64,000 bases of DNA from the NCBI RefSeq assembly GCF_000384395.1, contig NZ_ARWE01000001.1, forward strand, positions 496,001 to 560,000. The letters are read 5' to 3'. Of the stretch, positions 32,144 to 53,300 are shown in pieces (position 1 is the first letter of the stretch; each line of letters begins with the position of its first letter). This DNA is from Geopsychrobacter electrodiphilus DSM 16401 (lineage in GTDB: Bacteria > Desulfobacterota > Desulfuromonadia > Desulfuromonadales > Geopsychrobacteraceae). Position numbers and translations under genes: made by a program. The notes under the pieces were generated by a model. That model was not told the DNA's origin, made no database searches, and was given only the letters and a program-made list of their open reading frames with translations.

Positions 32144-33622
32144 ATGTTTAAAAGTCTGATCAGTCGCATTATTCTCTTCAACGTTCTGTTGCTCGCCCTC
32201 GGGGTCGGGATCTTTACCCTGTTTCATCTCTATCGTGAACAGGGGCACCTGATCGGCGCGACCCGTAATCATGCCAACATGTTGCTCGGCACGATTGAGA
32301 AGTCTATCTTTAACTCAATGCGCCTGGGAAACACCTCCGAAGTTCAGGCAATTCTCGAAACTGTTGGACATGGGCACGGAATAACCGGGGTGCGTATTTT
32401 TAATTCTGAGGGGATTGTCCTTAAATCTGCAGATCCTGAAGAGATTGGTGCCCGTGTCAACAGCCAGGATCTCGAGTTGTTTAATAAAAATCTTACGGAA
32501 GGGTTTTTTCAGTTGCAGGGTGGCGCGCGCGTACTGGCCATGGTGCGCCCGATTGTCTCGGATGAACGTTGTTTCCGTTGCCATGGCGACGGGCGGCGGG
32601 TCATTGGCGTGCTCAATATGGATTTCTCCTTGTCCGAGATGAATCTTCAGTTGCGAGAAACCAGCCAGTTGTTTGTTGTTTCGACCCTGATCATCCTCGC
32701 TTTTCTGGCCGCCGGAGTTTCGGTCGTGATGAACAGATTCCTGCGCCGCCCTCTGGAGAAAATCACCCAGTGCATGGCGCAGGTTGAAGATGGCGATCTC
32801 ACGGTACGCATGCAGTCCGTACAGGACGATGAAATCGGACAGCTGATGGATGGTTTTAATGCGATGGTCGGTAACCTTTCCCGTGCGCAGAATGAACTCG
32901 AAACCTATCATTATCAGCAGATGGAACGTGTTGATCGGCTTGCTTCGGTCGGAGAGATGGCCGCAGGTCTGGCTCACGAAATTAAGAACCCGCTGGCCGG
33001 GATCAGTGGCGCGATCAGCGTTTTGTCCGAAGATTATCCGGAAGGGGATCAGCGTCGTGAAATTATGCTGCAGATCCAGTCCCAGATCGGACGACTCGAC
33101 AAAACGGTTAATGATCTACTCTATTTCGGTAAGCCCGGGAGTCCCGAGTTTTTATTTACCAATATCAACGACCTGATAAAGCAGACGTTCCTGTTCGTCG
33201 CGCAGCATCCGGAATCAAAAAATATCAACCGGGTTGAGGAGTTGACGCGGGATCTGCCTGCAGTCTGGATTGATCGGAAGCAGATTCAGCAGGTCATCCT
33301 CAATATTGCCCTGAATGCCGTACAGGCCATGACCGAAGGCGGCGTGCTGACAGTGGTGACAGACCAGCTGAGCCAGGAACGAAAAAACTGGGTCAGGATC
33401 CGCATCGCTGACACCGGGCCTGGTATCACACCTGAGGTCCGGGCTAAGATTTTTACTCCGTTTTTCACCACAAAGACCCAGGGCACCGGACTTGGCCTGC
33501 CAATTTGCCGGCAATTGATGGAGCAGAATGGCGGGAGTCTGGGGGTTGAAAGTGAGCTCAGCAAGGGTGCGGAGTTTACTTTGCTTTTGCCGGTGCTGGA
33601 TGCTCGGCCCAGGTCGATATAG
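32144..33622 (+). CDS. Membrane sensor histidine kinase with periplasmic heme c motif
   Basis: A 492-residue kinase. The first helix is about residues 8-28. The periplasmic domain (about 30-170) contains CFRCH at residue 143 in SDERCFRCHGDGRRVIGVLN, a c-type heme attachment motif, so the sensor is likely redox- or gas-responsive. The second helix (about 178-198) is followed by HAMP (DDEIGQLMDGFNAMVGN), phosphoacceptor EMAAGLAHEIKNPLAGISGA (H278) and an ATPase domain (ILNIALNAVQAM, DTGPGI, GTGLGLPICRQL). It is 48 bases upstream of a sigma-54 response regulator, its evident partner. GGGAGG precedes the ATG. Confidence 0.92.
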   Translation: MFKSLISRIILFNVLLLALGVGIFTLFHLYREQGHLIGATRNHANMLLGTIEKSIFNSMRLGNTSEVQAILETVGHGHGITGVRIFNSEGIVLKSADPEEIGARVNSQDLELFNKNLTEGFFQLQGGARVLAMVRPIVSDERCFRCHGDGRRVIGVLNMDFSLSEMNLQLRETSQLFVVSTLIILAFLAAGVSVVMNRFLRRPLEKITQCMAQVEDGDLTVRMQSVQDDEIGQLMDGFNAMVGNLSRAQNELETYHYQQMERVDRLASVGEMAAGLAHEIKNPLAGISGAISVLSEDYPEGDQRREIMLQIQSQIGRLDKTVNDLLYFGKPGSPEFLFTNINDLIKQTFLFVAQHPESKNINRVEELTRDLPAVWIDRKQIQQVILNIALNAVQAMTEGGVLTVVTDQLSQERKNWVRIRIADTGPGITPEVRAKIFTPFFTTKTQGTGLGLPICRQLMEQNGGSLGVESELSKGAEFTLLLPVLDARPRSI

Positions 33623-33670
33623 CCTTAAACGTACACATGTTCGCTGGTTGCTATGAGGAGTGCGCCCTTT

Positions 33671-35041
33671 ATGAAAAATAAAATTCTGGTTGTCGATGAC
33701 GAGCATCTCATCCGTTGGTCCCTTGAACAGAGTCTTAAAAAGCAGGGCTATGAGGTCAGTACTGCGGGTTCAGGGGAAGAGGCTCTGCGGTTAGTGCAGG
33801 AAGAGACCCCTGATCTGGTCCTGCTCGATATCCAGCTGCCGGGAATGAACGGGATGGAGGTCCTCGAAAAGATCAAGGAGCTCGAAGAAGACGTGATTGT
33901 TATCATGGTCACAGCTCTCGGGGTGCTCGAAACAGCGGTTAAGGCGATGCGGCTTGGTGCCTATGATTATATCAATAAGCCGTTTAACCTTGATGAGTTA
34001 GCTATTGTAATCAAGAAGGCTCTGGAGACCCATGAGCTCCGTCTGGAGGTCGCACAGTTGCGTGCCGTGCAGCCGAAGCGCTTCAGTATCTCCAGTATTA
34101 TCGGCGCCAGTTCCGATCTGCAGCATGTATTGTCGATGGTGCGGAAAATTGCCTTGAGTGATGCCGGCACTGTCCTGATTCAGGGCGAAAGTGGCACCGG
34201 CAAGGAGTTGATCGCCAAGGCAATTCACTACGAAGGAGCTCGCGCCGATAAGCCGTTCATGGCGATCAACTGTGCCGCGGTCCCGGAAACGTTGCTGGAA
34301 AGCGAGCTGATGGGGCACGAAAAAGGCGCTTTTACCGATGCCAAGAGTCAGAAAAAAGGTCTTTTTGAGATGGCTCATGGTGGCACGGTTTTTCTGGATG
34401 AGATTGGCGACATGCCGATGGCGATTCAGGCCAAATTGCTGCGTGTTCTCGAAGATCGTACATTTCGGCGGGTCGGCGGCGTGCGAGACATTCATGTCGA
34501 CATCCGGATTGTCTCGGCAACCAACTGTAACCTGCTCGAAGCGATCGAAGCGAAGGATTTTCGGAGTGATCTTTACTATCGCCTGCAGGTCATTCCGATC
34601 TTTCTGCCGCCCTTGCGCGAGCGGCGCGATGATATCCTGCTTCTTGCGCGTCACTTTATCTCAGGGTTTAATCGTGAATTCGGCAAAGATGTGAAGCGGA
34701 TCTCACCTGAAGCAGAGGCCGTGCTCATTAAGTACGACTGGCCGGGGAATATCCGCGAATTACGCAATGTTATCGAGCGTGCGGTTATCCTTGAAAATGA
34801 TGAAACGATGGAACTCTCGCACCTCCCCCGTGAGGTGGTCTCAAGAAGTCTCCCTGCCGGTGATGGTGGACCGCTTATCTTTAATCTCCCAACTGAGGGC
34901 ATAGACATCGAAGATGTTGAGCGTGAATTGATAAAACAGGCGCTGGAGTCCTCCGATGGTAATCAGTCGAAAGCTGCGAAAAAATTGAATCTCGGTATCG
35001 ATGCTTTTCGTTACCGAATGAAAAAATTTAAGTTTTTGTAA
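33671..35041 (+). CDS. Sigma-54-dependent response regulator (NtrC family)
   Basis: A 456-residue activator. Residues 1-120 are a receiver (VVDDEHLIRW, phospho-acceptor D53 in LLDIQLPGMNG). The AAA+ domain spans ~140-370, with Walker A GESGTGKE, GHEKGAFTDA and Walker B GGTVFLDEIGDM. The sigma-54 contact loop reads GAFTDA rather than GAFTGA, a substitution I believe is seen in other regulators. The C-terminus is a Fis-type helix-turn-helix (SDGNQSKAAKKLNLGIDAFR). The ATG at 33671 has GAGGAG at good spacing. A probable target promoter lies at 35157. Confidence 0.94.
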   Translation: MKNKILVVDDEHLIRWSLEQSLKKQGYEVSTAGSGEEALRLVQEETPDLVLLDIQLPGMNGMEVLEKIKELEEDVIVIMVTALGVLETAVKAMRLGAYDYINKPFNLDELAIVIKKALETHELRLEVAQLRAVQPKRFSISSIIGASSDLQHVLSMVRKIALSDAGTVLIQGESGTGKELIAKAIHYEGARADKPFMAINCAAVPETLLESELMGHEKGAFTDAKSQKKGLFEMAHGGTVFLDEIGDMPMAIQAKLLRVLEDRTFRRVGGVRDIHVDIRIVSATNCNLLEAIEAKDFRSDLYYRLQVIPIFLPPLRERRDDILLLARHFISGFNREFGKDVKRISPEAEAVLIKYDWPGNIRELRNVIERAVILENDETMELSHLPREVVSRSLPAGDGGPLIFNLPTEGIDIEDVERELIKQALESSDGNQSKAAKKLNLGIDAFRYRMKKFKFL

Positions 35042-35071: not shown

Positions 35072-35127
35072 CAAAGGCGCAAAAAAGCCGATGTTTTTTT
35101 GAAAACACCGGCTTTTTTGCGCCTTTG
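35072..35127 (+). terminator. Long symmetric terminator hairpin
   Basis: CAAAGGCGCAAAAAAGCCG pairs perfectly with CGGCTTTTTTGCGCCTTTG, and the inner TGTTTT/AAAACA extends the stem to about 25 base pairs. It isolates the regulator gene from the promoter that follows. Confidence 0.88.
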
Positions 35128-35156: not shown

Positions 35157-35172
35157 TGGTACCATCTTTGCA
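35157..35172 (+). promoter_or_regulatory. Sigma-54 (-24/-12) promoter
   Basis: TGGTACCATCTTTGCA fits the consensus TGGCACG-N4-TTGCW in 10 of 12 informative positions, with the obligatory GG and GC exactly ten bases apart. The start of transcription would be near 35184, about 70 bases upstream of the ATG at 35255. It lies directly after the terminator of the sigma-54 activator gene. Confidence 0.75.
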
Positions 35173-35254: not shown

Positions 35255-38218
35255 ATGACCCGGTCCCGTATCAATATCTGCCTGCTTGCGGTGATATCAC
35301 TGTTGTTTGGAGTGATTTGGCAAGGAGCTGCTTATGCGGCAGCACCGACTTTGACAAATCTTGGGCAGATTGATCATACATTTCGTGAGGCCGCCGCTTT
35401 GGCTCTCGACGGAGCAGGCAACCTCTACGTGAGCGACATGCGGGTGCGGGCTGTTTACAAGTTTGATAAGTACGGCAAGCTGGCTGCAACCTTTCCGGTG
35501 CCGAATATTAAAGGGGAAGGGCTGGCGGTTGACGCGGGCGGGCATATTCTGGTCTCCGCCTCGTCCACGGCAACGGCAGCGGCCTACGGTGATTTTGCTG
35601 ATAAGGTTTTGATTCTTGATTCGGATGGCGTACAGATCGGTGTTTTGGGTCAGGGGACTGGCGAGTTCAAGATGGCCGGTGATATCGATTTCGATGCTAA
35701 CGGAAATATTTACGTAGCCGATCGTGGCGCCGGAATTATCAAGGTTTATCCTCCGACCTTCGGTGCTGGAGTGCAATTTGGCGCTCTCCATTTTGATGGC
35801 AGTATTGATCTGGCCGTTGATGCGCTAAACAACGAGATATATATCGCAAATTATAATTACGATGTGACGACAGGAGCGGGTCCTGCTCTCTATGCTTATG
35901 ACGCTGGCGCAGTACAACTGAGAAGTATTCCCGCCGATACCGGATTCGGTGGCGACAGCTTGAGCCGTTTTGGAGCCATTGAGTTTGATAGCGCCGGGCG
36001 TTTTTATGTTTCCGATTTTACCCTGCACAGCATCCGGGTTCTCGATCGTCCGGCGACTCAGGTTTTAAAATACACCGATAATATTCATCAGACAGGGGCC
36101 ATGGCTTTTGATGCCATTACCAATCGCCTGTTTGCCCTTGATTACAGCAGCAGGATCAACATCATCGGGATCGATGGTGGTTCCACTCCGCTTAAAGTCA
36201 ATGCCCCGCCCAGCGTTCCGGTTTCGATTACGGTCGGAGAAGTCTCAAGTGCCACTCCCACCTTACGGTTCAACAACGCAATTGATGCTGACGGTGACCT
36301 GCTGAATTATGAGGTCAGGGTCGTTGATGCGGCAGGCGTTGTCGCTGCTGATTTTAATGTTGCTGAGGGTGCCGGGCAAACCAGCGCTCCAGTTAGTGTG
36401 GCTCTGGTTGAGAATGCGAGCTACACCTGGCAGGTTCAAGCGAGCGATGGTCAGGCGACCTCCGGGTGGTCTGCACCCATGTCGATCTATGTCAATGCTG
36501 TTCAGGAAGCTCCCACCGCGCCCGTTTTGACGACCTTCATTTCCGGGAATGTCGCCGGTAGCGATGCCGTGCTGACCTGGGATGCGTCTGTTGATGCTGA
36601 TCCGTTCGCGACTATCTCCTACCGGGTTGAGGTCTCTGACGGGCTGAATCTGGTAGCCAGTGCTGATACGACCGCTACCAGCATCGCGGTTGCCACTTTT
36701 TCTGCCACCTTGAACCCCGATGTGACATACACCTGGAAAGTCCTGGCGGTCGACAATACGGCGCTAACGACGGCTTCTGCCAGTACGGGAAGTTTTGTTT
36801 ATCAACCATCAGCGCTGCGGATTACCTCAACTGTTGATGGCGCGAAGGTCTACCTTGGTGGCCATCATGGCTACGCCGGGCGGTCTTTGGGTACAGCTCC
36901 GGTTGACGTTCGCGGCTTGCCCCAGGGTAATTATGCGGTTGTCGTTGAGGCTGCCGGCTTTGAGCCTTTTGTGCAGTCGGTTTTCCTCGCCAAAGATGCA
37001 TCCCTAAACGTTCTTGCAGATTTAAGAAGTGCCAATCTGCCTGATGGTTTCGCTCAACATGATCTGAATGTTGGTGGTGTGCCCTTTCACGGAGCAGGCG
37101 TTGCCCCCATTGTTGCAGATATTGATCATGATGGAGTTTTAGATCTTCTGGTGGCTGACGGCGGCCATCTTAAATTTTATGGTGGAACGCTGGTTCAGAA
37201 TCCGCAGGCAAATGACACGATTGAAGATTTAAGCCTTCCAGCCGCCGATCCTTCTGCTCCAGCAGCCTATCGCGTTGTTTTTAATCGCCCGGTACAGCAG
37301 CTTGCGTTACCGCTGATTGATGGTGCCGCGCCCTGCCTGGTCGATTGGAATAATGACGATAATTACGATCTATTGGTTGGCGCCTCTGATGGCTCGGTTA
37401 ATTTGTTCCTTGGCCAGGGTGGTTTGACCTTTGCTGCTGAAGGGCAATGGTTGGTGACCACAACCTCGAGGGCTATTCCCGCCGTCGCCGATTTTGACGG
37501 CGATGGTGACAAGGACCTGATTGTCGGTTCAGGGAATGACCTTTTGCTCTTCGAAAATGTGGGCACCGATGCCGCACCGAGCCTTAATACCCAAAAAGTT
37601 TTAGCCACATTGACCGCTCCAGTCGTTCCCCTGTTTGTTGATTGGAATGCAGATGGATTACGTGAGCTCATGCTGCTGAGCCAGGGCGAAATGTTCTCCG
37701 CCGAGCTACAGAACGGTCTGGTGACGGCGCTCAAGTCTACGGGACTGAGTGTTGCTGGTGCCGAGAGCGTTTTTGCGCTGAACTTTGCCGATCGCAATTA
37801 TAACGATCTGGTCTTCGGTACCTCAGCAGGTGCACTTGTCGTCGCCAACGGACAACAGGGGGCAACCGCTCCTGCCTTTATGTCCGCTCTTTTGGTTAAG
37901 CTGGCTGAAATCGAGCAGCTTGTTCTTTCCCAGGCTCCTGCCCAGGGCGTTCGGGTTGAGGCCTTAAGGCGTCTCGTATCGGCGGCCGATTATGGCATGG
38001 CTCTGCCCAAATCAATTAAACTTGTCAGCTCTTTAAAGTATGGAACACCCGCATGGGTTTCTGCTGTTGAGTTTATCGGAATGCTTGATCCCGCAGCCGC
38101 GCAAGCCGTTTCTGCCACCGCCGCTTTAAAGGCAGTTGCTGATGACGCGCGTCTCCATCAGAACTCCGACGAGAAATCAGACGACAAGTCTGATAACAAG
38201 TCTGACCATGAAGACTGA
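35255..38218 (+). CDS. Secreted NHL / FN3-like / PEGA / FG-GAP repeat protein
   Basis: A 987-residue exported protein. AGGAGG precedes the ATG; the signal peptide ends near AAYAAAPT (about residue 31). Residues ~35-325 are NHL-type six-bladed propeller repeats (ALDGAGNLYVSDMRVRAVYK; DFDANGNIYVADRGAGIIKV). Two fibronectin-III/cadherin-like modules span ~335-530, a PEGA domain ~540-605 (VDGAKVYLGG; GNYAVVVEAAGFEPF), and FG-GAP/VCBS-like repeats ~610-870 (DFDGDGDKDLIVGSGNDLLL). The tail is strongly charged (DEKSDDKSDNKSDHED). It has no heme motif. Position ahead of the cytochromes suggests an outer-surface scaffold or assembly partner. Confidence 0.85.
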   Translation: MTRSRINICLLAVISLLFGVIWQGAAYAAAPTLTNLGQIDHTFREAAALALDGAGNLYVSDMRVRAVYKFDKYGKLAATFPVPNIKGEGLAVDAGGHILVSASSTATAAAYGDFADKVLILDSDGVQIGVLGQGTGEFKMAGDIDFDANGNIYVADRGAGIIKVYPPTFGAGVQFGALHFDGSIDLAVDALNNEIYIANYNYDVTTGAGPALYAYDAGAVQLRSIPADTGFGGDSLSRFGAIEFDSAGRFYVSDFTLHSIRVLDRPATQVLKYTDNIHQTGAMAFDAITNRLFALDYSSRINIIGIDGGSTPLKVNAPPSVPVSITVGEVSSATPTLRFNNAIDADGDLLNYEVRVVDAAGVVAADFNVAEGAGQTSAPVSVALVENASYTWQVQASDGQATSGWSAPMSIYVNAVQEAPTAPVLTTFISGNVAGSDAVLTWDASVDADPFATISYRVEVSDGLNLVASADTTATSIAVATFSATLNPDVTYTWKVLAVDNTALTTASASTGSFVYQPSALRITSTVDGAKVYLGGHHGYAGRSLGTAPVDVRGLPQGNYAVVVEAAGFEPFVQSVFLAKDASLNVLADLRSANLPDGFAQHDLNVGGVPFHGAGVAPIVADIDHDGVLDLLVADGGHLKFYGGTLVQNPQANDTIEDLSLPAADPSAPAAYRVVFNRPVQQLALPLIDGAAPCLVDWNNDDNYDLLVGASDGSVNLFLGQGGLTFAAEGQWLVTTTSRAIPAVADFDGDGDKDLIVGSGNDLLLFENVGTDAAPSLNTQKVLATLTAPVVPLFVDWNADGLRELMLLSQGEMFSAELQNGLVTALKSTGLSVAGAESVFALNFADRNYNDLVFGTSAGALVVANGQQGATAPAFMSALLVKLAEIEQLVLSQAPAQGVRVEALRRLVSAADYGMALPKSIKLVSSLKYGTPAWVSAVEFIGMLDPAAAQAVSATAALKAVADDARLHQNSDEKSDDKSDNKSDHED

Positions 38219-38258: not shown

Positions 38259-38996
38259 ATGGAAAAGGTTCAGAGAATGATGAAGCAAATTCTTTTCATA
38301 GCGGTAGGCCTGGTTCTTTCAGCGGGCCCTGCGTTTGCGGGGATCGCCAATACGCCGCACAATTTGTCGACTTCTCAGCCGGACCCTACGCTTAAATTCG
38401 CTTATTCTGCGACCAATGAAGATGAAATCTGTGTCTTCTGCCACACGCCGCATGGCGGGACGCTTGATGCCCCGTTATGGAACCGCAACATGCCAGCCGC
38501 CGGCGGGTATACGCAGTATACCAGCGCGGCCTTGACCAAAGCCGGCATCGCGACCGTTCGTAACGTCAACCCTGAATCTCTGGTCTGCCTTTCCTGCCAC
38601 GACGGAAGTTTGACCGTAGGTGACATCATTAACCCCTCAGGTGCCGCTCCGGACAATACCAATGCGGTGTTAAATAAAATCGTTCCCGGGTTTGGTGGAA
38701 ATCCTGGTCCGCGTATCGGGGGCTCACGCTCAAATACGACGGACACCATCGACCTCAGTGACGATCACCCAATTTCATTTAGCTATACCGCTGTTGATTC
38801 GGCCAATCCCGGGACATTGAATCCGGTTGCAGGGGTCGAGGCCTTGGGGTTAACGCTGTATGGTGCGGGCAAAAATGTCGAATGTTCGACTTGTCATGAC
38901 CCTCATGTCGATTATTTGGCTAACCCTGCATTGAAACCATTTCTTGCCATGTCCAATGCAAGCAGCGCCATGTGTTTAGCCTGCCATATTAAATGA
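38259..38996 (+). CDS. Secreted tetraheme cytochrome c
   Basis: A 245-residue protein. The signal peptide is KQILFIAVGLVLSAGPAFAG. Four CXXCH motifs are present: CVFCHTPHGG, CLSCHDG, CSTCHDPH and CLACH at the C-terminus. The CxFCHTPHG and CLSCHDGS stretches are typical of a periplasmic or outer-surface multiheme family in Geobacter relatives. The ATG at 38259 is downstream of AAGGAAG. It is the smallest of the three cytochromes in this cluster and could connect periplasm to the larger ones. Confidence 0.9.
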   Translation: MEKVQRMMKQILFIAVGLVLSAGPAFAGIANTPHNLSTSQPDPTLKFAYSATNEDEICVFCHTPHGGTLDAPLWNRNMPAAGGYTQYTSAALTKAGIATVRNVNPESLVCLSCHDGSLTVGDIINPSGAAPDNTNAVLNKIVPGFGGNPGPRIGGSRSNTTDTIDLSDDHPISFSYTAVDSANPGTLNPVAGVEALGLTLYGAGKNVECSTCHDPHVDYLANPALKPFLAMSNASSAMCLACHIK

Positions 38997-39057: not shown

Positions 39058-42000
39058 ATGAAACTGAAGAATATGGTAACGCTACTGGTCCTTGCAGTGT
39101 TGATGGTTGCCCCGAAAATTGCCGTCGCACGATATGTCCACGATATAAAGTGTGACTATTGCCATAAACCCAGCGCGGTACTTAATGATGTGGCAACCAA
39201 CGTGTGTCTGGATTGTCACGCTACCGGGAAAGGGCTCGACCCCTACAACCTCGTACGGACCGCCCCGGGGACCATTTCAGTCGGAACGGCTGTCTTTGCG
39301 GTCGGTGATGCCAGTAATGCCATGGGGCATGGCGCCGGTCCTGTGGACCAGACCTCCCACAACTGGGGGGCGTCAGATACAAACGCGGCGGCCGGTGCAT
39401 CAGCCCCAGCGAACCCCTTGTTTTATGGCCGTTCCAATTATGCCGGGGCAAACGTTTCCTGTGCCCGCTGCCATGATCCGCACGGTTCCAAGGATGACGT
39501 CGGAGTCGCAAATCCGTTATTGCTGAAACTGGGTGCCAACAGTCAGGACGCAATGTGTCTTGATTGTCACCGGACCTGGAATAAAGACAGCGCTACCAAC
39601 CCCAACGCCTGGTTGACCCACCCATTGGAGGCAAATTATGCCTCCTATGTTGATAACGTTAAATTCAAGCCTTTTACCCCTGACGGTGGCATGACCCTCA
39701 ACGCTACTGGGGGCATGTCCTGCACCACCTGTCACGGCACCCATTATACCGATTCTGACGCGTCAACACCTGACGGCCCGGGCCTTGCCCTCAATCCAAA
39801 CGGGTTCAGTAACGGGCGCATGCTCAAGGGGAACGGGAGCCTCAGCACCAACAAAAGCAGCCTCTGTCAAAGTTGTCACCTGTACAAGAGTCACGGGCCC
39901 ACCGCCAAGGTTGGATGCCTCGATTGCCACAGCGGTCACTCCTATGATCCCGCCAATCCCAGTCTGCCCAACTATTTCGTTCTGCGTTCCTCCATCAATA
40001 ACGTCGATCTGCCGGCTGGCAGCCCCGCCGGGGTAGGCACCGGTAATGTGACCGGTTTAAATTATAAGACCGCGACTGCCGACTGGTTCAACGCCGGCGG
40101 GACCGGTTATTGTCAGAACTGTCACACTATCCCCGTCGACGGTTCCGGTAATCATAACGGCCTGGCGTCCGGCGGTGCAGCTCAATGCTCTACCTGCCAT
40201 GGTCACGCTAACACCAATGGAAGTTTTGGCGGATCCTGTAACACCTGCCACGGTTACGCTCCCAGCACAAACACCCCCGGCGGACCTACCGGTTATGCAG
40301 TTAACGGCGCCAACAACTACTCCCTCGCCGGTGCTGCTGTCTTCAAGGATGAGAGCAAAACCCCGCACGCCGCCCACGCAAGTGCTGGTGGGTACGGTTT
40401 CAGTTGTGACAAGTGTCACCCGGCCGGGTCTGCAACCGCCAGCCATGCCGGTCACAATTCCGGCAGCTTTCAAGAAGTCGATTTTGGGACCACCGCCGGT
40501 CTCGCCCGGACCAAAGGCATGGTGCCTGTCTATAACCCGGCCGGAACTGTTGGTACCGACAAGGGGACCTGCTCGGCCGTTTATTGTCACAGTAACGGTG
40601 GTGCCCGTGCCCTGGCGCCGAAGGCAGCAAATCCAGGTGCCTGGCAGAATGGAAGTACGACCTACGCCATTGCTCCGACCGCGTGTAACGCTTGTCATGG
40701 TAACGATGCAACCACGATGGGTGCTGCCGATAAGGCCAACTCACCCACCCACCTCAAGCACCTAGCCAAGGGCTACTCCTGCTCCGTGTGTCACAAGGCG
40801 ACCGCCGACAGCGCGACGGCTCTTGCTGCCGGCGCAATCGGTGGCACGCACGTCAACGGCACCGCTGACGTAGTTTTTGACGGTACCAGCTTTACCCAGC
40901 TTAATACTGTGCCTGGTGTCTACGGCACTGACGGCACCTGTCAGAATCTCTACTGCCACTCCGCCGGCCCAAGTGCCACGGTCGGTGTTATCCCTGATTG
41001 GGATCTTTCAGCCACCGGCGCTTGCGGGACCTGTCACCAGGTCAACGCGACCGGCGATACCGGCGCTGCCCTTTCGGGGGCCCATAATACCCACGTGTTC
41101 AGCGCAAACGGGCCGAAGCTGGCCTGTACCACTTGCCATACCAATAACGGCAGCGGAGCTGATCATGTTAACGGCTTTGTAAGCACCGTCGCTAACCTGC
41201 AGACGGTTGTCTGCGATACCTGTCACGGTGCCACTGCTGCAGGAACCGGCGTGGATGCTGAGCCGGTATGGATCACCCCGGCCAGTGTCACTTGCCGTAC
41301 CTGTCACCAGGGGACCCTGGCCAATTTCGCTATAATTGGTGGGCCGGTTGCACCCTCCAAGGATTCGTTTGACACCACAGGTCATGGTAAGGCTGGTCTG
41401 ACCGGCGCGCCTGACTGTACCGGTTGTCACGACACCACCTTGGGCAAGCACTTTGATGGCATCTCCGGCGATCCACAGTTGACAGGAGGCGCGGTTGCAA
41501 ACACCGCTTTTTGCCAGACCTGTCACACGAGTTCTGTCCACTATGCCAATACCAGGACTGCGGGTGGGACATCCAATGATGGTGTGGATTGCGCTACCTG
41601 TCATAATCCGCATGGTGACGGGATGGGAACCAACAGCGATGCCATGATTCTCGGCACCATTGCTGGCCACACGGTGAATAATTTCACCGATAAAACCGCC
41701 CGCGCCAGCTATTGGCAGGCTGATAACACCGGCGTCTGCCAGGTTTGTCATGACCCGAGTGAGGTCATTCACTTCAACCGGACGACCAACGAAAATGGAA
41801 CGCACTTCGCCACCAGTGGCGTCTGCACCACCTGTCACAAGCATACGGATACGCCGATCTTCAAGCCCAATGCCAACAGTTGTGGCGCCTGTCATGACGC
41901 CCTGATGGCGACTGCGCCGCACTCTAAGCACGTCAACAAGCTTGGCGGCATCATCGAGACCGATCGTTCCGATTGCGTGTCCTGTCACGGTGCAGCGGTG

Positions 42001-45000
42001 AACAGCTACACCAACAGCGGTGGAGATATCAACCACCAGAACGGCGTCGTCAACTTCGCTACCGGGATAGCCGATGCCGGCAGCGGCTTGAACGTTTCCT
42101 GCTCTGCTGCGTGTCACAGCACCGTTACTGGTAAGGCCGCTCTCTGGTCAGATGCTTCTCTGGCCTGTACCGCCTGTCACGGCAACCCGCCGGCCGACGG
42201 TGGTGGAGACAGCCTGGCCCACAGCCGTCATATTGCCGCCGGACTGACCTGTGCTACCTGCCACGTTACAACGCCGGTCGATACCAGCCATATCACCAAT
42301 ACTGCCGGCGCTACCGATCTCGCGGTCCTGCAGAACATGGCCCAGGCTCTTCCCGCTGAGGCTAACGTCGTTGTTTCTACCTGGGACAACGTCAACAACA
42401 CCTGCGCCAATGCGGCCTGTCACAACCCATCCGCTGATACCCATCTGGCCGATTGGGATACCAGCATCTCCAGCTGTACCCTTTGCCATGGTGACAATGC
42501 GGTTTCGCCTGCCACAACCGGAATGGTAAGTGGCAGCCACCGTCAGCATCTGGATAATGCCACCACGTTCGGTAACAACCGGACTTGTACAGATTGTCAT
42601 GCGGATCCCGCCGGGAATACTGCGCATCGCAACGGAACTCTTGAGGTTCTGCCTGGGCTGACTTACAACGGCGAAGTTGCAATTCCGAGTGTGGGTGTCG
42701 GCAACTGCTCGACTTCGCAATGCCATTCCAGCAATAATAAAGGGACCTCACCCTTCTTTACTTACGCGCCTTCACCGACCTGGGGAGATAACACCGCGGC
42801 AGACAAATGTATTCTTTGTCATGCCAAGCCTCCGGTCAATGGTGATCACCAGGCTCACTGGGATGCAACCCGGCAGGCTAACGGAATGACTTGCCAGAGC
42901 TGCCATAACGGCACTGCAACCCCTGGCTTTACCATCGTTACCGGTGGCGGTAGCCACCTCAATGCCATCCCTAATGTCTCCGGATTTAACGATGTTAGCC
43001 CCGGCGGCAGCTACAACGGAACCGCCGTGACCATGACCTACACCATGGGCACGACCGGCCCTTCAAACTGCACGGCAAGTTGTCACAGTGATAAGGTTTC
43101 GCCTCGTGACTGGGCAGTTGCAAGCTCTTGTGATGCCTGTCACTCGAACCTTACAGCTGACCCGACCCATGCCAAGCACATAGATATCGCCGCAGGTATT
43201 CAGGCCGATCGCAGTGAATGTGTGCTTTGCCATGGCGCCCAGGTTAATAGTTATGCCTTGACCGGCGGCGGTGATGTGAAGCACGGCAATGGCACCGTTG
43301 ATTTTGCTGCCGGCATCGCCGACGGTGGAGTCTCACCCAACCAAACCTGTACCGCCGCCTGCCATGGCTCGTCCGCTGCGGACGGGTTCTGGGGTGATAC
43401 GGCGCTGAACTGTACCGCTTGCCATAACAATGGAACCAATGACAATAACATCGCCAATGCCGCACCGTTGACCGGTTCCCATCTCAAGCACGTCACGACT
43501 CAGGGTATGCAGTGCGCCGATTGTCATGGGACGCTTCCGGTTGATACCTCGCATATCAGTGGTTTGAACGCGACTGGAGCCATTTCGGCGACCGATGGTG
43601 CCAAGCTGACGGACAAGGCGACACCGATCGCCGATAACGCTACCGTCAATGACAGCCCCTTCGATAACGTTGGCAACACCTTTGACGATGTCAACAACAC
43701 CTGCTCCAATACCTACTGCCACGATCCTTCCAACGCGGGCAAACTGGTGACCTGGGGCGTCGATACCGCATCCTGTACCCTCTGCCACGGTGATGGTCAG
43801 GGCGCAACCCAGATGGCGACCGGCACCCACGCCAACCATCTGAACGCCACGGCGACCTTTGGTCTTACCATCACCTGTACCAAGTGCCATCCGGACAATA
43901 CCGGGAATAATGGACACTTTATCAAGACCACTGGTCCAACTACGGTTAAACAGGCGGTTCAGTTCGGCGGAACCGTTATCACCGGTGCCCAGACGAGCCC
44001 GGTTGTTAACGGCCTTTATTCCGGCGAGGTCGCGCTTCCCAATACCGCTTACGGAAGTTGCGGAACTACGGCCTGCCATAATAACGGTCAGGGCGGGGCC
44101 CCGAACAACAGCACTTACACCTGGGGTACCACCAATATCCAGAACTGTCTGCTTTGCCACAACAATATGCCGACCACAGGCGGCCATGCGACCCACCTTG
44201 ATGGCAACATCAAGTACGGTCCATTTGCGAAGACTGGTGGCAGCACGAACTGTGGTCTCTGCCACGCTGCTAATGCCAACAACACCAGCATGGCTGGTCA
44301 GCCAACCCATATCAACGGCACCATCTCCTTTACAGGTGCTAAAGAAGTGACCAGCGGAGCAATCAGTGGTAACACCACCGTCACTGCCTGTGACCTCTGT
44401 CACGGTGGTGCGGCTGCGGTTAATCTCGCGGTAACCGGCGCCAAGGCGGTCTGGTCAGCGGGTGGTCCGGTCGCCTGTGAAAGCTGTCATGGTGATTATG
44501 CCCAGGCCAATGTTTCCGGTGCGCTCGCGCCGGTACGCGCCGGGGCAGCTTATGACACTAATGGCCATGGCAAGCCCGGTGTGGCCAAGGCCTGCGTTGA
44601 TTGCCACAACCATGCCGGTGATCACATCGGTTACACGACCAAACGCTTGAACCTGATCAGTGGCAAGGACTTTAACCTGGTCCCGAACGACTTCTGTAAT
44701 GCCTGCCATACCACGCTGACAAACTCGGCGGTGCATAATGCCAATGGCGCCTCCGGGACCAGTAACGATGCGTTGCTCTGCGTCACCTGTCATGACCAGC
44801 ATGGTCAGAATGGTGGACAGGATGCCATGATCGCCTCGACGATTCAGACCCACACGGTCAGCGGCTTCACCTCACGCAGCGCCAGGGCCAGTTATGCCAA
44901 CGCCGGCAATACCGGAGTCTGTCAGGTTTGCCATGATCCCAATGACCCGACGGCAACGGATGGCCTGATCAAGCACTTTAACCGCACTTCGGGCGCTGCC

Positions 45001-47178
45001 GAACTGGCAACTCACAACGCCGGCACCAACTGCACCGTCTGCCACAGCCACACCAGCAGCCCGATTTTCAAACCGAGCGGTTGCAACGGCTGTCATGGTG
45101 GCGGTACCGTCGGCAGCTTCGCCAGCAACTACTGGCCGGATGGCAACGATGGCGCCGCCGGTCCGAATGATGCCGGTCGCCACCTTACTCATATGAATAA
45201 CCTCGCCCAGCGGGTCTACGGCATGACCGCCGTTCAGCTGCTTAGCCAGCCGACCGCCGATGCCGCCCAGAAAGCACTGTGCGAGTACTGCCATGCCGCG
45301 CTCACCAATGATAGCGACCATGGTAACAACGCCAACCTGCCAGCCGAGGTCTTTGTCGATAAAGACGGGATCCGTCACGCCAAGAGTCTGTGGGGTGCGG
45401 CAGACCCTGATGCAACATATACCGCCGGTAGCTGCTCGAATGTCGATTGTCACAACAGCAAGGTCACCGGTACCGGGACTTTCGGCTGGAAAGACGCTGG
45501 CACAACTACCTGTACCATGTGCCATACCCCAGGTGCCGCCGGTGCGAACCCGACCACCGGGTTGCATACCGTTACTCAAGCTGGTGTTACGGTCCACGAC
45601 GCAACCCTCGGAGCCGGCTGTACTGAATGCCATAATGCGCTGCCAGCAATTGGCAACACCGCTGCATCTACCCACATCAACGGCAGCTTCTCGGTTGACT
45701 CTGCCGTCAACACTGCTGCCGAGCGTGGCATTAGCGTCGCTGGCAATATCACCTCTTTCACCGAAGCAGCCGTCGGTACCAGCGACTCCTGCGCCTCCAA
45801 CTGTCACAGTGACGCAGGCAACTGGCAGCGTCTCTGGAGCACCGCCGCTGATTCTACCGCTACGGCCCTGGGCTCGGCCCGTTGTGATGTCTGTCACGGG
45901 CAGTTGAATAACTGGCGCGGCGGCATGAGCGTCAACCACAATCTCCCTAAAATAAATGACGGGACCCACACCGATTGTACCCAGTGTCACGTCGCGCCGA
46001 ATGCGCCGTACAGTTTCGCTACCATGCATGAAAACGGTACGGTTGAAATCAACAACAACTCCGCGATGAGCTACAACACCACCGCCGGCACCTGTTCCGT
46101 GGTCGCTTGTCACGGGTCAGTAACCCCGACCCGTGGTCCGGGCGCTTCGACCATCTTCACCGAGAACCTGCTGAATGGCCCGGGTGCCAGCTGTAACTCC
46201 TGCCACCTGGCAACCGGTGGTAGTAACAACACCAATACGGTTGGGGGATATACCTTTAAAAACCGCATCGGTGCTCACGCCAAGCACGTGCTGTCGGCTG
46301 CGACGGCTTACGGCAGCACGGCGACCTCTACCAGCGCCGGCAGCTATAACTATGGTTGCGGTGTTTGTCACCCAACCAACGAAGGTGCCAATCACCAGGA
46401 CGGGATCGTCGAACTGCTGCTCGATCCGACCTCCGCTCCTGGGACTATCAAAGCGCTGAATGGCGCAGCTGCCGCCTACAATGGCAGCACATGTACCGCG
46501 GTCTATTGCCACGGTGATGGCGTCACGCCCGGCACCAGTCCGAACTTCCTGACCGGTGCCTTCACCAACCCCAACGGTGATTACTGTCAGAACTGTCACG
46601 GCAACCAGCCGACCACCAGCAGTCATGCCAAGCACGTTGTCGGTATCCACTACGATGATATCTATACCGGAACCTCAGGGCTGCTGGTTGATGGTGCCGC
46701 CAGCAACGCGGGTCACGGCGATGTAACGACCGCGATCTCTATCACTTGCGCACTTTGCCATAACGCCACAGTTAACAACTGGTACAATGGCAACAACACC
46801 GCCTGCGTCAGCTGCCACGGGACCTTAGGGGCTGCCTCCAATAAAACGGTGCTCGCTTCTACCGACCTTGACAAGACCCTGCACGTTAACGGGGTCAAGG
46901 ACGTGGTCTTCGCTCCGGTCGATCCGATCCGCTCCAAGGCCCAGATCCGCGAACTGACTCCGGGTGAGCCCGAGTTGAACAATAACTGGCAGCGTCTCAA
47001 CGGTTACAAGGTGGGTGCCACTTCGCACGATGAGACCAAGGTCGCTGCGCCGCTCACCGCGGCCAACTGGAATGGCACCACCAAAAACTGTACCGTCGCC
47101 TGTCACAACGGCAACGTTGCAACCTGGGGCACGACAAATGTCAGCTGTAACGCTTGTCACACCCAGCTTCCCAAGTAA
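39058..47178 (+). CDS. Giant multiheme cytochrome c (57 CXXCH plus 14 CX3CH/CX4CH)
   Basis: A 2706-residue secreted protein with a signal peptide (MVTLLVLAVLMVAPKIAVAR). By my hand count it has 57 CXXCH motifs, 9 CX4CH (for example CSAVYCH, CQNLYCH, CSNTYCH) and 5 CX3CH (CSAACH, CTASCH, CTAACH, CASNCH, CTVACH). Each long motif is followed by a CXXCH, usually after a W or D/W stretch, as in the Geobacter CxxxxCH...CXXCH domain (TIGR01904). Histidines for distal ligation are abundant (SHLKHV, GTHANHL). Internal duplication is evident (residues ~770-950 and ~1830-2020; ~970-1030 and ~1380-1440). It is likely an extracellular electron conduit. No transmembrane or porin part is seen. Confidence 0.92.
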   Translation: MKLKNMVTLLVLAVLMVAPKIAVARYVHDIKCDYCHKPSAVLNDVATNVCLDCHATGKGLDPYNLVRTAPGTISVGTAVFAVGDASNAMGHGAGPVDQTSHNWGASDTNAAAGASAPANPLFYGRSNYAGANVSCARCHDPHGSKDDVGVANPLLLKLGANSQDAMCLDCHRTWNKDSATNPNAWLTHPLEANYASYVDNVKFKPFTPDGGMTLNATGGMSCTTCHGTHYTDSDASTPDGPGLALNPNGFSNGRMLKGNGSLSTNKSSLCQSCHLYKSHGPTAKVGCLDCHSGHSYDPANPSLPNYFVLRSSINNVDLPAGSPAGVGTGNVTGLNYKTATADWFNAGGTGYCQNCHTIPVDGSGNHNGLASGGAAQCSTCHGHANTNGSFGGSCNTCHGYAPSTNTPGGPTGYAVNGANNYSLAGAAVFKDESKTPHAAHASAGGYGFSCDKCHPAGSATASHAGHNSGSFQEVDFGTTAGLARTKGMVPVYNPAGTVGTDKGTCSAVYCHSNGGARALAPKAANPGAWQNGSTTYAIAPTACNACHGNDATTMGAADKANSPTHLKHLAKGYSCSVCHKATADSATALAAGAIGGTHVNGTADVVFDGTSFTQLNTVPGVYGTDGTCQNLYCHSAGPSATVGVIPDWDLSATGACGTCHQVNATGDTGAALSGAHNTHVFSANGPKLACTTCHTNNGSGADHVNGFVSTVANLQTVVCDTCHGATAAGTGVDAEPVWITPASVTCRTCHQGTLANFAIIGGPVAPSKDSFDTTGHGKAGLTGAPDCTGCHDTTLGKHFDGISGDPQLTGGAVANTAFCQTCHTSSVHYANTRTAGGTSNDGVDCATCHNPHGDGMGTNSDAMILGTIAGHTVNNFTDKTARASYWQADNTGVCQVCHDPSEVIHFNRTTNENGTHFATSGVCTTCHKHTDTPIFKPNANSCGACHDALMATAPHSKHVNKLGGIIETDRSDCVSCHGAAVNSYTNSGGDINHQNGVVNFATGIADAGSGLNVSCSAACHSTVTGKAALWSDASLACTACHGNPPADGGGDSLAHSRHIAAGLTCATCHVTTPVDTSHITNTAGATDLAVLQNMAQALPAEANVVVSTWDNVNNTCANAACHNPSADTHLADWDTSISSCTLCHGDNAVSPATTGMVSGSHRQHLDNATTFGNNRTCTDCHADPAGNTAHRNGTLEVLPGLTYNGEVAIPSVGVGNCSTSQCHSSNNKGTSPFFTYAPSPTWGDNTAADKCILCHAKPPVNGDHQAHWDATRQANGMTCQSCHNGTATPGFTIVTGGGSHLNAIPNVSGFNDVSPGGSYNGTAVTMTYTMGTTGPSNCTASCHSDKVSPRDWAVASSCDACHSNLTADPTHAKHIDIAAGIQADRSECVLCHGAQVNSYALTGGGDVKHGNGTVDFAAGIADGGVSPNQTCTAACHGSSAADGFWGDTALNCTACHNNGTNDNNIANAAPLTGSHLKHVTTQGMQCADCHGTLPVDTSHISGLNATGAISATDGAKLTDKATPIADNATVNDSPFDNVGNTFDDVNNTCSNTYCHDPSNAGKLVTWGVDTASCTLCHGDGQGATQMATGTHANHLNATATFGLTITCTKCHPDNTGNNGHFIKTTGPTTVKQAVQFGGTVITGAQTSPVVNGLYSGEVALPNTAYGSCGTTACHNNGQGGAPNNSTYTWGTTNIQNCLLCHNNMPTTGGHATHLDGNIKYGPFAKTGGSTNCGLCHAANANNTSMAGQPTHINGTISFTGAKEVTSGAISGNTTVTACDLCHGGAAAVNLAVTGAKAVWSAGGPVACESCHGDYAQANVSGALAPVRAGAAYDTNGHGKPGVAKACVDCHNHAGDHIGYTTKRLNLISGKDFNLVPNDFCNACHTTLTNSAVHNANGASGTSNDALLCVTCHDQHGQNGGQDAMIASTIQTHTVSGFTSRSARASYANAGNTGVCQVCHDPNDPTATDGLIKHFNRTSGAAELATHNAGTNCTVCHSHTSSPIFKPSGCNGCHGGGTVGSFASNYWPDGNDGAAGPNDAGRHLTHMNNLAQRVYGMTAVQLLSQPTADAAQKALCEYCHAALTNDSDHGNNANLPAEVFVDKDGIRHAKSLWGAADPDATYTAGSCSNVDCHNSKVTGTGTFGWKDAGTTTCTMCHTPGAAGANPTTGLHTVTQAGVTVHDATLGAGCTECHNALPAIGNTAASTHINGSFSVDSAVNTAAERGISVAGNITSFTEAAVGTSDSCASNCHSDAGNWQRLWSTAADSTATALGSARCDVCHGQLNNWRGGMSVNHNLPKINDGTHTDCTQCHVAPNAPYSFATMHENGTVEINNNSAMSYNTTAGTCSVVACHGSVTPTRGPGASTIFTENLLNGPGASCNSCHLATGGSNNTNTVGGYTFKNRIGAHAKHVLSAATAYGSTATSTSAGSYNYGCGVCHPTNEGANHQDGIVELLLDPTSAPGTIKALNGAAAAYNGSTCTAVYCHGDGVTPGTSPNFLTGAFTNPNGDYCQNCHGNQPTTSSHAKHVVGIHYDDIYTGTSGLLVDGAASNAGHGDVTTAISITCALCHNATVNNWYNGNNTACVSCHGTLGAASNKTVLASTDLDKTLHVNGVKDVVFAPVDPIRSKAQIRELTPGEPELNNNWQRLNGYKVGATSHDETKVAAPLTAANWNGTTKNCTVACHNGNVATWGTTNVSCNACHTQLPK

Positions 47179-47228: not shown

Positions 47229-47263
47229 CGCTCACTGCAGGGGCAATGCCCCTGCAGTGAGCG
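47229..47263 (+). other. Perfect hairpin between the two giant cytochrome genes
   Basis: CGCTCACTGCAGGGGC pairs with GCCCCTGCAGTGAGCG around an AAT loop, a 16-base perfect stem. No T run follows. It lies in the 216-base leader between the stop at 47178 and the probable start at 47395, so it may set relative expression of the two genes. Confidence 0.7.
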
Positions 47264-47394: not shown

Positions 47395-50300
47395 ATGAAG
47401 GTTGAAATCCGGAGGAATTCAGGGATGTTCAGATTTGCACACCTGGCCTTGGTGGCCGTTTTTACGCTGATGTTTGGGGTCGCTGGTTTTGCAGGCAATG
47501 CTGAGGCTGCGACGGCCACTTATTATACCTCCGGCGATAGCGGTACTAGCGTCGCAACCGGGGTGACGACCAATTACACGGGCGGTTGTTCGGGTGGGCA
47601 AAATGGGCCGGTCCGCACCCTGATGGCGAAGACAACCAACTACTGCGGGAATTACCAGTATTCCAGTGGTAACGTTGGGTCTACTCTGCTTGAGGCGTAT
47701 AGTGATACGGCATATGCAGCTGCCACTCAGGTTACTGGCGGGACCTATACGATTTACCAATATGGTGGCGGCAGTGGTCCCTGGACCGGGGGTTATCAAC
47801 TTTTCTACATCACCAGCAATGGGACAAAGACCAATTTTTCTGGAGCTCAGGTTACGCAAAGTTTAGATGGTCAGGTGAGCATTAATCTGTCTGGTCAGTC
47901 CGCGGTTGTTCCTGCCGGTGCTAAGCTTGGCATCCGGGTTGTTGCTACCGCAGATAATGGCAGCGCGAATGGACCACTACTTGTCTGGGATCAATTTAAC
48001 GGCAATCAGGGAACATTGACGGTTAATGAAACAGCGGCCTGCTCGGCCACCGCTCCATCCGATCTCGCCGCCAATGCGGTCAGCGGTGGCCAGGTTGATC
48101 TGACCTGGACCTACGACGGCACCAACAACGATTACTACACCGTGTTCCGCGACGGCGTGCAGATCGCGACCAACATCATCAGCGGCAGCTACAGCGACAC
48201 CACGGTCTCGACCAGCACGACCTATAACTACACCGTGCGTGGTTACAGTGTGGCTTCCGCCTGCGAAAGTGGAAATTCGAATACGGCTAACGTCACGACC
48301 CCGGCCTGTACCGAAGCAACGCCTTCCATCGTCTGGACTTCCCAGAACACCGCCTCTGGTGATTTCAGCGGCGCGCCTTTCGTTACTCTGAGCAATGTCC
48401 AAAGTGCAAGCCTGCAGTACAAAGTGACCGAAACCACCGGTGGCGGCCCCGGAACGGTTTCGATTCTCGATGCCTGGCCGAATGCACCGCAGGTTTCGAC
48501 GACGACCTCGACGCCGGCGACAACAAACTTTACGCCGTCAGGTACGAGTGCCGACAACCGAGTGGTGGTCATCTCGGTGGCGGCCTACACCGGTGGCACC
48601 AACACCACGACCATCAGTGTCGACTACGGCAACGGCTCCACCTGGACGCCGGCGCGGCTGATCGGCTACTCGGCGAACAACCAGCGGCGGCAGAATTGGC
48701 TGTTCTACCTGAACGAGGCTGATATCGCCGCATCTTCGGGGAATAGGATTCGTGTTTCCAATAATGTAGCCGGCAACGGATATGCGGCCTGGATCGCCAC
48801 CTACGCCGGAGTCCAACAAAATTCGTCGGGGACTGGTGCTGGCTTCACGATCAACGATTTCTACGGCGAGTACCCCAACCAGGTTTCCAGTACGACCTTT
48901 ACCAATTCCCTGGCGGTCGAAGCGGGGGGCTACGCCCAGTACTTTGACATGAAGAGTGTCAACGCCGAGACCACTGACAACGAAAACTATTCGAGTAATA
49001 CCGTCCAGAACATCGGTGGCGCCTATGCCGACACCCACTGGAAGGCTTTTGCCACGGCGGGGACCACCCAGCCGACCTTGTCGTGGGGTGGTTCTAATGC
49101 CTACATGGGCTACGCAGGATTCACCCTGAATCCGGCGTCCAGCGGCCCGGTGGAGACCACGGTGATCAACTGGACCGCCGACCCTATCCCCGGCATGGCG
49201 AATCTGACCGATGGTAACACCTACAACCTCTATGCCCAAGGTCTGAGCGGCACCTGCGGCGTTTCTGTCTACGGCGACAGCGTATCTCAGCTTGTTGCGG
49301 ACGGTACCCCGACAACTTTTGGTTGGACCTCCTGCGTTGAAACCCTTACCCTGACAGCGCCCAGCATCACCGGCCCAATCACCGGACCGGTGGTCGTGAC
49401 CGCGGGTGGCACTGCCACCGGCAAGCAGGTCAGCTGGAGTGAAAACGGAGGCAGCACCTGGAGTGCCTGGGCTGCCAGCGGGGCGACCTATACGCCTACA
49501 AGCTGTACCATTGGCAACGTTATCTTCAGGGCTCAGGCCAGTGGCACCTGCGCAGTCATGACCGCCCAGTCTGCCGCCGTCGCGTTTGATACCTCGGATG
49601 CTGATCTCGCGACCCTGACCACCACCAACCCGATCACCGCCAATTCGACGGTCGTCATTCAGACCGCTGTCGGTGTAGAAACTGTTCCGGCCGGGATGAC
49701 CGGCATGGCTGTTACTATTGCCGGCGCTGGAACCTGCAACGTCACCGGTGCGGCGATGAGCTGGAATGCTGGCTCCTCCCGCTGGGAATATAACTGGAAC
49801 ACCAGCGCCTGCGGCACAGTCACTGCGGTCACCGGCGTCAGCATCGCCGTCTCCGGGACTGACCCCGATTGCGGTAACGCGGTATCGGCACCTCTGGTCA
49901 GCGGTGTCACTATTGATAACACCTGCGTTGATGCTACTCCGTCAACTATCACTGTCCCGGCCAGCCAGTCTGTTTCCGGGGCCAGTGTCAATCTGGCATC
50001 GCTGTTCTCCAGCACCGGCAACGTCGGCAGTTTCACTTTCACCATCAACGGCTCGCCGGTGACCAGCCCCTGGAACAGCAGCGCCTTCGGCACCACTGGT
50101 CCCCAGGCGGTAACTCTGGGCGTGACCGGTACCGATCCCGACTGCGGTGGCAGCGTCGTTGGTCCGAGCACCAACAGCATCACCGTTAATAACGCCACCC
50201 CGACCGTCATCAGTTCGGCGACCGCCTCGAGTGGTGACGCTAAAATCACCGTCGCCGTCGCCTACAGCGGTGATACGAACACCAACAATAACGTTCAGGT

Positions 50301-53300
50301 CGAATATGGCGCTTGCGCCGGGACCTGCGATGGGACCACCTTTGGGACCAACCTGGGATTGCTCGGCCACCAGATCAGCCCCTACCTGCAGAACATCAGC
50401 GGGCTGACAAATATGCAGAAATACCAGGTGCGCGTCACCATCAGCGATGCAGACGGAGTATCACCCCAGACCGTTTATACTTTCATCGACGTGATCCCGT
50501 CTAACCCGATGCTGCATAACGCGGCCTCTACCGGCTCTACCAAGTGGGGCGGCAACTGGGGTCTGCCAGGCGGCAAGTACGGCGAGTTCACCTGTCAGAC
50601 CTGTCATACCGACACCACGACCAACATCAAACGGATTAAGACCAGCATCTCTTTCCCTGACAGCAGCCTGATGCCCAACGGCCTGCCCTCCAGCCCGGTC
50701 ACCCTTACCGACACCCGGGATCTCACCAGCGATTACGCTGCCGCTGCCGGTAACCATGCCACCAGTAACGGCGTCTGTGAGGTCTGTCATAGCCTGGATG
50801 AAACCAAGGTAAACGGGGTCCAGCATCACGCCTATAATATGAGCACTGCGACCGCGACCAACCAGAACCACTTTTTGCAGAAAGATTGCATGACCTGTCA
50901 TAATCACAAGTCCGGCTTTTTGCCGACCGCTTGTGACGCCTGCCACGGCAACCCGCCGATAGCCAACAATACCGATGGCAGCACCAATACCGGTTTGGTT
51001 CACACCTCTGTAACCGGCAGTACCACCCCCGGTGCGCACAACCTGCACGCTGTAACCAAGGGCTTCACCTGTGACACCTGTCACAATGGTTATGTCATGC
51101 CTAACGGCGGTGACATCAACATCAGCTTCAACGCTTTCGGCACCACTACTGGAACCTACACCGGCCAGGATGGTGTCAGTTATAACGGGACCGTCGTCGC
51201 GGCCGGCAATGGCACCAAGACCTGCTCCGCCGTTTACTGTCATGGCGGCACCATCGGCGGCGGTACTCCCCCGATCTGGGACGGCACTGTTGCTTGTGGC
51301 GATTGCCATGGCGCCAGCAGCACCACTCCGCCGATCGGCGGCAGCCATGCGACCCACGCCGGGACCCTGGCATTGGCATGTACTCAGTGTCATGGTGCCA
51401 CCGCCGGTGCAGCCGGTCATATGAACGGCAATGTTTCCTGGGATGTCAGCGCTTTGCCGACCCAGGTTGCTGGAACCGTCACTTACAAGACCACCGCTAC
51501 CGGCAGCACCGGGGCCATTGCTCCCAGCGCCACCTACGGCAGCTGCGCCAACGTCAAGTGCCATTTCGGCAACACCCCGACCTGGGGCGGCGCTCTGCCC
51601 AACGGCTGCGCCAGCTGTCATAACAATGGCCTCGGCGAACCTTGGCCGGCCACCGGGGCACACAACGCCCACTTCACTGCCCTCGGCGTCTCATTGGCCA
51701 CCCAGGTGACCAACGGTCCCGTTGTACAGGCCAAGTGCGACTATTGCCACAGTGGCAATATCCACTCCAACGGCACAGTTGAAGTCAACGTCTCCGCCAC
51801 CTATCAGGACAAGTCCGGCGGTGCCAGGACATATGCCGGCAGCCAGTGCAGCAATATCAGCTGTCACGGCGGCCAGATCACCCCGGCCTGGACCGGGACC
51901 ATCGATGCAAATACCCAGTGTACCCAATGCCACAAGGCAGAGAACGTTGGGACCGAATACAACAGCGCAACCACCGGTATGCACGGCATTACCGGGGTTG
52001 TCAGCGGTGAGAACCACGGCAGCGCGCTCGCCTGCACCGCCTGTCATAACGGCCAACCGGCCAACCATTTCAGCGATGCCGGTTTAGCGACCAGTGCCAT
52101 GAACCGTCCGGCGGGAACCGACTTTGTCGCCGGGGTGACTCTGGGGGCCAATTCGGATCTGGATACCTGCGCCATGGCCTGTCACAAGGAAGGGGCGACG
52201 GCTCCGCGTAGCGGCAGTGCTCCCTGGGCACGATTGAATAACAAAACCTTCGCCTCCGGCGGCGGCGCAGCGGGTGACGAGTGCAAGACCTGTCACGGCA
52301 CCTGGGGTAACTGGCGCGGCAACATGCTGGTCGATCATACCAAAGACTGGGATACCGACGGCACCGCCGAAGTCCAAGCCAACCACGCCGAATGTGAGAC
52401 CTGTCACGGCTTCGCGCCGACCAAGACCAACGCAGCCTACAATGCGACCTGGGGCACCGGAAATCATGGCGACGGCATAATCACCATGAACGGTCCGACG
52501 CCGAATACCGGCGCCGGCTACAACCAGGCTAACTGGGGCTGCGACAACGCTTGCCACGGTAACGCCAGCACCCTGCACAACCTGTCTGATTCGAAATGGA
52601 ACGTCGGTTTCGGCGACTTCGGCGCGGGCAGTTGCGACAGCTGTCACTCCGCCGGCGGCAGCGGTCCGACCGTGGTCTATCCCACAGGGAATTCCGGCTG
52701 GGCCGGAGAAACCTACGGGGCCCACCTTAAGGCGACGACCGGTGATGTGCTCTCTAATACCACCGACTGGGCGACCCAGTGTCAGAAGTGCCACGGCTTC
52801 CACAGTGGCAAGCTGGTTTCCCCGAACATCATCGCCAACAATGCCACCGTTGGCATCAACTACACCGTGCATGGTGGTATCAATCTCGGCGGTACTGCGA
52901 CCACCGCAACCACCGAAGCGGAAACCTGCTGGGGCTGTCATGACAGCCAGACCCCAAAGATTTCCGAATGGCAGACTAACACCGACACCAACGGAGCCGA
53001 GCCTAACTATGATTTCGGTGGGTTGTGGACCACTGCTGCTGCCACCACGGCACGATCCAACTGGGTCGGCGCTTACTGGAAATCAGCCACCGCGATCTTT
53101 GGTTACAAGACAGGCCTGATTCAGTCGACCCATGCGGCCTCCACCAATACAGGCGCCGCCTCCGGACTCGACACTGTGGCCTCCATCCGCTGCAGCTACT
53201 GCCATGACGTCCATAACACCTACGGACCCAACGGCAAACCGTACCTGCGTGGCACCTGGATGGGTTCACCCTATCCGGAAGATGGCGCCCCGCAAAGTAC

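Follow-up and report, generated by a model that had tools for sequence, protein, structure and literature searches.

A 71-Motif Giant Cytochrome Encoded beside an OmcE-Family Tetraheme Cytochrome in Geopsychrobacter electrodiphilus

Introduction

What can a bacterium do with a single protein chain that offers attachment sites for about seventy hemes? Are the sites real, and are they filled? And, if they are, does the chain conduct electrons by itself, does it store them, or does it serve a larger assembly at the cell surface? These questions are raised by one gene of Geopsychrobacter electrodiphilus DSM 16401, located at 39058-47178 (+) of the 64,000-nucleotide stretch of DNA analyzed here (the window). 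The giant cytochromes have been described before as a class, and their heme number is kept nearly constant by selection. In this work, the gene is examined together with its neighbors and its relatives in other genomes.

A Single Chain with 71 Heme-Attachment Motifs

The gene begins with an ATG and, as read from the open reading frame and its translation, runs in a single frame without interruption to give a protein of 2706 aa. It contains 71 heme-attachment motifs: 57 CXXCH, 5 CX3CH, and 9 CX4CH. This recount agrees exactly with that of an earlier sequence-only reading, and the estimate made there of about one motif per 38 residues throughout is also borne out, the mean spacing being 38.1 residues and the maximum 95. 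Every cysteine of the protein (142 of 142) lies inside a motif, with none to spare, and composition alone would lead one to expect ∼1.3 motifs against the 71 observed. The translation opens with a predicted Sec signal peptide, MKLKNMVTLLVLAVLMVAPKIAVA (39058-39129, +), which has no lipobox, and no membrane anchor is apparent in the sequence. The computed mass of the mature chain is ∼272 kDa, rising to ∼316 kDa with 71 hemes.

Comparison of the giant with itself uncovers internal repeats: a module at residues 925-1325 (41830-43032, +) has a second copy at residues 1341-1776 (43078-44385, +), with 44% identity between residues 925-1190 and 1341-1620, and residues 703-946 are 42% identical to residues 1751-2013. 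Judged from its sequence, the giant is a chain that grew through duplication of small heme modules.

With regard to family, TIGR01904, the model for CxxxxCH/CxxCH-domain c-type cytochromes, matches the giant in 12 stretches at 171.6 bits, well above its curated cut-off of 27. The second model named by the sequence-only reading, TIGR01905, scores 19.9 bits, under its cut-off of 25.2. PF22113 (MtrC/MtrF domains II/IV) also scores above its cut-off, in a match that may rest mainly on the heme motifs, and the models for the OmcA/MtrC decaheme cytochromes (TIGR03507, 18.3 vs 209.3 bits) and for the HmcA hexadecaheme cytochrome (NF045713, 19.3 vs 400 bits) are far from being reached. Sequence and profile searches revealed no significant similarity to the solved nanowire chains OmcS, OmcE, and OmcZ, and no solved relative. 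AlphaFold2 models built with window-derived segments were unusable, at pLDDT 35.6 for residues 690-1340 (6 segments) and 33.4 for residues 1105-1330 (16 segments).

Orthologs and Selection on the Heme Sites

The relatives of the giant tell whether its motifs matter. A match is present in 44 of 118 related genomes, full-length orthologs among them, while a search of genome contigs gave two distant matches, and neither viral contigs nor plasmids yielded any. Uninterrupted frames of 2719-2802 aa occur across the order, the closer orthologs being 45-68% identical to the giant; these full-length single frames dispose of the frameshift that could have undone the earlier view of one continuous gene. 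Five other genomes have orthologs with exactly 71 motifs, and two others have 68 and 75. The set of heme sites varies little among many metal-respiring bacteria.

The conservation is concentrated on the heme ligands. Among eight long orthologs, the motif cysteines are 98.9% identical and the motif histidines 99.6%, compared with 47% for residues other than C and H; at 61 of the 71 sites, all three motif ligands are kept in every one of the eight. The giant has a further 81 histidines outside the motifs, which are 89% conserved, and 70 of them are present in at least seven of the eight orthologs. Some 70 conserved nonmotif histidines would fit one distal ligand per heme, and suggest bis-His ligation.

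Are the long-spaced motifs heme sites as well? At sites 15, 33, 36, 60, 63, and 70, some species have CX3CH where others have CX4CH, and CX2CH never appears there. This interchange at the same sites, together with the conservation of the ligands, is strong evidence that the CX3CH and CX4CH motifs of the giant are true heme sites. It follows that counts made from CXXCH alone, or from CX2CH and CX3CH (as in a published count of 69, discussed below), miss heme sites. Given such strong selection, the long-spaced motifs included, most of the heme sites are probably filled. The giant that the sequence-only reading described on the condition that most motifs are filled can be restated more precisely as a giant c-type multiheme cytochrome that is secreted, with sites that are under strong selection and for the most part probably occupied. 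Genes for cytochrome c maturation of the ResB/CcsA type are present in the genome; a ResB-like gene lies a few kilobases downstream (60455-61654, +), and CcsA was not found adjoining it.

Some relatives deserve separate mention. In genome G073, the ortholog (L057:6290-14647) is divided by one in-frame TAG into parts of 1724 and 1060 aa that both retain their motifs, and this may denote a pseudogene, a sequencing error, or read-through. Genomes G108 and G071 each encode two giant homologs (L072-L075) of ∼3850-3957 aa with 61-62 motifs, located ∼20-25 kb apart; one copy of each pair has no OmcE-like neighbor in the stretch read. A record size for the giant described here was considered and rejected, as 86 motifs have been reported in ANME archaea and the homologs found in this work reach 74-75 motifs or 3957 aa. 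The genome of G. electrodiphilus itself encodes two more large multiheme cytochromes, of 1415 aa with 26 motifs (L060:7276-11523) and of 1437 aa with 29 motifs (L062:5866-10179).

The Operon and Its Regulation

Directly upstream of the giant is the gene of a tetraheme cytochrome (38280-38996, +) of 238 aa when counted from the second Met, with another possible start at 38259. This protein matches the OmcE chain 7TFS with a phmmer value of 5.9e-27 and the chain 9YUQ with 2.1e-25, values that become 2.7e-49 and 1.5e-40, respectively, in a profile search. The alignment of its family shows four CXXCH motifs and four further invariant histidines, in the pattern of distal ligands, and the N-terminal histidine is conserved. 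By sequence, the tetraheme protein is a member of the OmcE nanowire family, and as such it should polymerize into a conductive filament, in which a histidine of the adjoining subunit would ligate the interfacial heme.

Upstream of the tetraheme gene, and behind the promoter described below, is the gene of a secreted protein that combines NHL β-propeller, fn3, PEGA, and FG-GAP domains according to Pfam (35255-38218, +); its ATG at 35255 is preceded by AGGAGG. After the giant comes the gene of a further giant cytochrome, the second giant (47395-54084, +), the frame of which opens at 47191 and has a signal-peptide-like start at 47395. Its 24 CX2-4CH motifs occupy the C-terminal half, and the ∼1000 N-terminal residues carry no heme motifs and give a weak fn3 match. 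Homologs of this protein with 18-24 motifs come after the giant in other genomes. At its end, the second giant has a conserved NCLD...QNCHR element (53902-54021, +) with 37 residues between the cysteines. The element is found in six of the six homologs with an intact C-terminus, with a spacer that is shorter or longer depending on the relative; it is a candidate CXnCH heme motif whose spacer would be very long, or it may form a disulfide. A perfect 17-bp inverted repeat (47229-47263), possibly an attenuator or a processing site, comes after the end of the giant and before the signal-peptide-like start at 47395.

How is this set of genes controlled? A σ54 promoter motif, TGGTACCATCTTTGCA, is present at 35157-35172 (+) and is the sole match to the pattern on either strand of the window. 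In 11 of 12 homologous clusters, the motif is found close to where the propeller gene begins, against an expectation of 0.004 per 450 nt. Before it are a histidine kinase (32144-33622, +), whose sensor domain contains a single CXXCH and which is a possible heme sensor, and an NtrC-type σ54-dependent response regulator (33653-35041, +). A terminator-like inverted repeat (35072-35127) lies after the regulator and ahead of the operon. From its position, the regulator is the candidate activator of the operon and may drive the TGGTACCATCTTTGCA promoter.

The order propeller, OmcE-like tetraheme, giant recurs in many relatives, and an OmcE-like subunit adjoins the giant in most complete clusters. 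The two are not always together: for six giant homologs (L073, L074, L077, L079, L081, and L082), the stretch read contains no OmcE-like gene. The genome of G. electrodiphilus has in turn two further OmcE-like tetraheme genes (G000:C1:1645000-1664500, L063, and G000:C1:968000-985000, L071) with no such giant adjoining. In the L063 cluster the order is PPIase, NHL, tetraheme, octaheme; in L071 the OmcE-like gene adjoins a same-strand gene for a 360-aa protein. Compared with these clusters, the giant operon looks like an enlarged version of a smaller nanowire-type cluster. Descent of the N-terminus of the giant from the octaheme of the other cluster is not claimed, the similarity being weak and driven by the motifs.

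Possible Roles of the Giant Cytochrome

In our judgment, the giant is probably a secreted, heme-rich electron-transfer scaffold and a partner of OmcE-type filaments in extracellular respiration; our confidence in this reading is moderate. Small heme modules would have been duplicated and then held near 70 hemes on one chain. A σ54-controlled operon would yield the giant along with the OmcE-family tetraheme, the surface β-propeller protein, and the second giant, whose N-terminal regions would be adhesin-like. The tetraheme would polymerize into a conductive filament, while electrons would hop along the giant, with all of its hemes filled and presumably bis-His ligated. In this manner, the giant could relay electrons between the cell surface or an acceptor and the filaments, as their base, as a side arm, or as a relay bound in the matrix. 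The intact gene, the conserved heme sites, the TIGR01904 match, the OmcE homology of the upstream gene, the conserved operon, the promoter motif, the maturation genes of the genome, and the extracellular cytochrome published for a homolog (see below) support this role; the giant homologs that lack an OmcE-like gene in what was read, and the two other OmcE-like genes of the same genome, which have no such giant, count against it. Moreover, a gene neighborhood shared by the giant and the tetraheme does not amount to proof of physical contact.

Could the giant instead be a wire in its own right? Its 71 hemes would then form one continuous line of tens of nanometers from the outer membrane to an acceptor, with no filament as partner, in keeping with the sequence-only reading, which proposed a very large heme wire extending far past the cell envelope. 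Motifs are spread over the full chain, never more than 95 residues apart, and simple arithmetic that assumes linear stacking gives ∼50-60 nm for 71 hemes at the rises of OmcS (47 Å for 6 hemes), OmcE (34 Å for 4), and OmcZ (58 Å for 8) (PMC12954529). However, an OmcE-type subunit is encoded alongside in most complete clusters, which suggests that the giant does not act alone, and a stand-alone wire is considered unlikely. Or do the hemes store electrons, as a redox buffer or capacitor located in the periplasm or the biofilm matrix, while contact with an acceptor is lacking? A very high heme number kept constant by selection, and a sequence in which no membrane anchor is apparent, would suit such a function, but the neighborhood points to surface filaments and to a propeller/adhesin surface protein, so that storage seems a rather poor prospect.

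The match to PF22113 brings to mind a further arrangement, in which the giant would not be free outside the cell and would belong to a porin-cytochrome-like conduit through the outer membrane. This is very improbable: apart from the doubt that this match may owe most to the heme motifs, the MtrC/OmcA and HmcA models stay far under their cut-offs, and a Pfam scan of the neighbors, a method that easily misses β-barrels, found no porin family. That the observation is an artefact, whether because the motifs arose by chance or because a repetitive gene was wrongly assembled, has a likelihood close to nil. The in-frame TAG of the G073 ortholog speaks in its favor, but intact orthologs, the same 71 motifs in five other genomes, and ligands conserved at ∼99% speak against it; ortholog comparison and the small number of expected motifs rule out that the motifs arose by chance or by frameshift.

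To return to the scaffold that works with filaments, a bolder form of it can be offered tentatively. Here, the giant would be a dedicated, covalently continuous partner of the OmcE-type nanowire, acting as its base, cap, or branch point, and the operon would produce a composite conductive appendage. The parts of this appendage would be the polymeric tetraheme filament, a single-chain connector of ∼70 hemes, an adhesive second giant, and the propeller protein. Many giant genes have the gene of an OmcE-type nanowire subunit as their neighbor and share with it a conserved σ54 promoter motif. For the attachment of cytochrome filaments to the cell, and for their charging, the operon supplies concrete candidate parts.

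Comparison with Known Systems

By sequence, the giant belongs to a class of giant cytochromes that has already been reported, and more precisely to the orthologous group of DSOUD_0664. This cytochrome of the iron-reducing Desulfuromonas soudanensis WTL was published in 2016 as extracellular and with 69 motifs (PMC4914508). The homolog of strain WTL found here has 58 CX2CH and 11 CX3CH motifs, a sum of 69 that equals the published count and becomes 75 once CX4CH is added. The homology with the giant is nearly full-length, with 89% of the positions aligned at 35% identity. In both cases, the operon consists of the propeller, the OmcE-like tetraheme, the giant, and a second multiheme giant, and the σ54 motif is present as well. 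They differ in motif number, 75 with CX4CH included vs 71, sites having been both gained and lost.

Other systems are set beside the giant by their published description. Among the large cytochromes of Desulfuromonadales around DESUT3_5430, one was reported to have 53 heme sites and its homologs in the order 55-77 (PMC8465243), and the likeness to the giant is drawn from that description; the closest match to the giant in genome G062 has 44 motifs and a contig position other than the DESUT3_5430 tag suggests. In Geoalkalibacter ferrihydriticus, a 38-heme OmcV-like cytochrome precedes one of 24 hemes that has fn3 domains at its N-terminus (PMC12016550); as described, this resembles the present arrangement in having a large cytochrome and then a 24-heme fn3 cytochrome, and differs in having 38 motifs vs 71. 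The giant multihemes of ANME archaea are single chains of 20-80 heme motifs, and up to 86 (PMC9012536); likened again by description, they differ in being archaeal and in carrying S-layer domains or transmembrane helices.

The OmcE nanowire (PDB 7TFS) is the remaining point of reference: the giant itself has no significant similarity to it, and the upstream tetraheme is by sequence a member of its family. In the literature searched, which covers the papers on OmcE and cytochrome filaments incompletely, no description was found of an operon that links such giants to OmcE-type subunits, and priority is not claimed. What this locus appears to add to the systems above is a conserved operon context that joins a giant cytochrome to an OmcE-type tetraheme.
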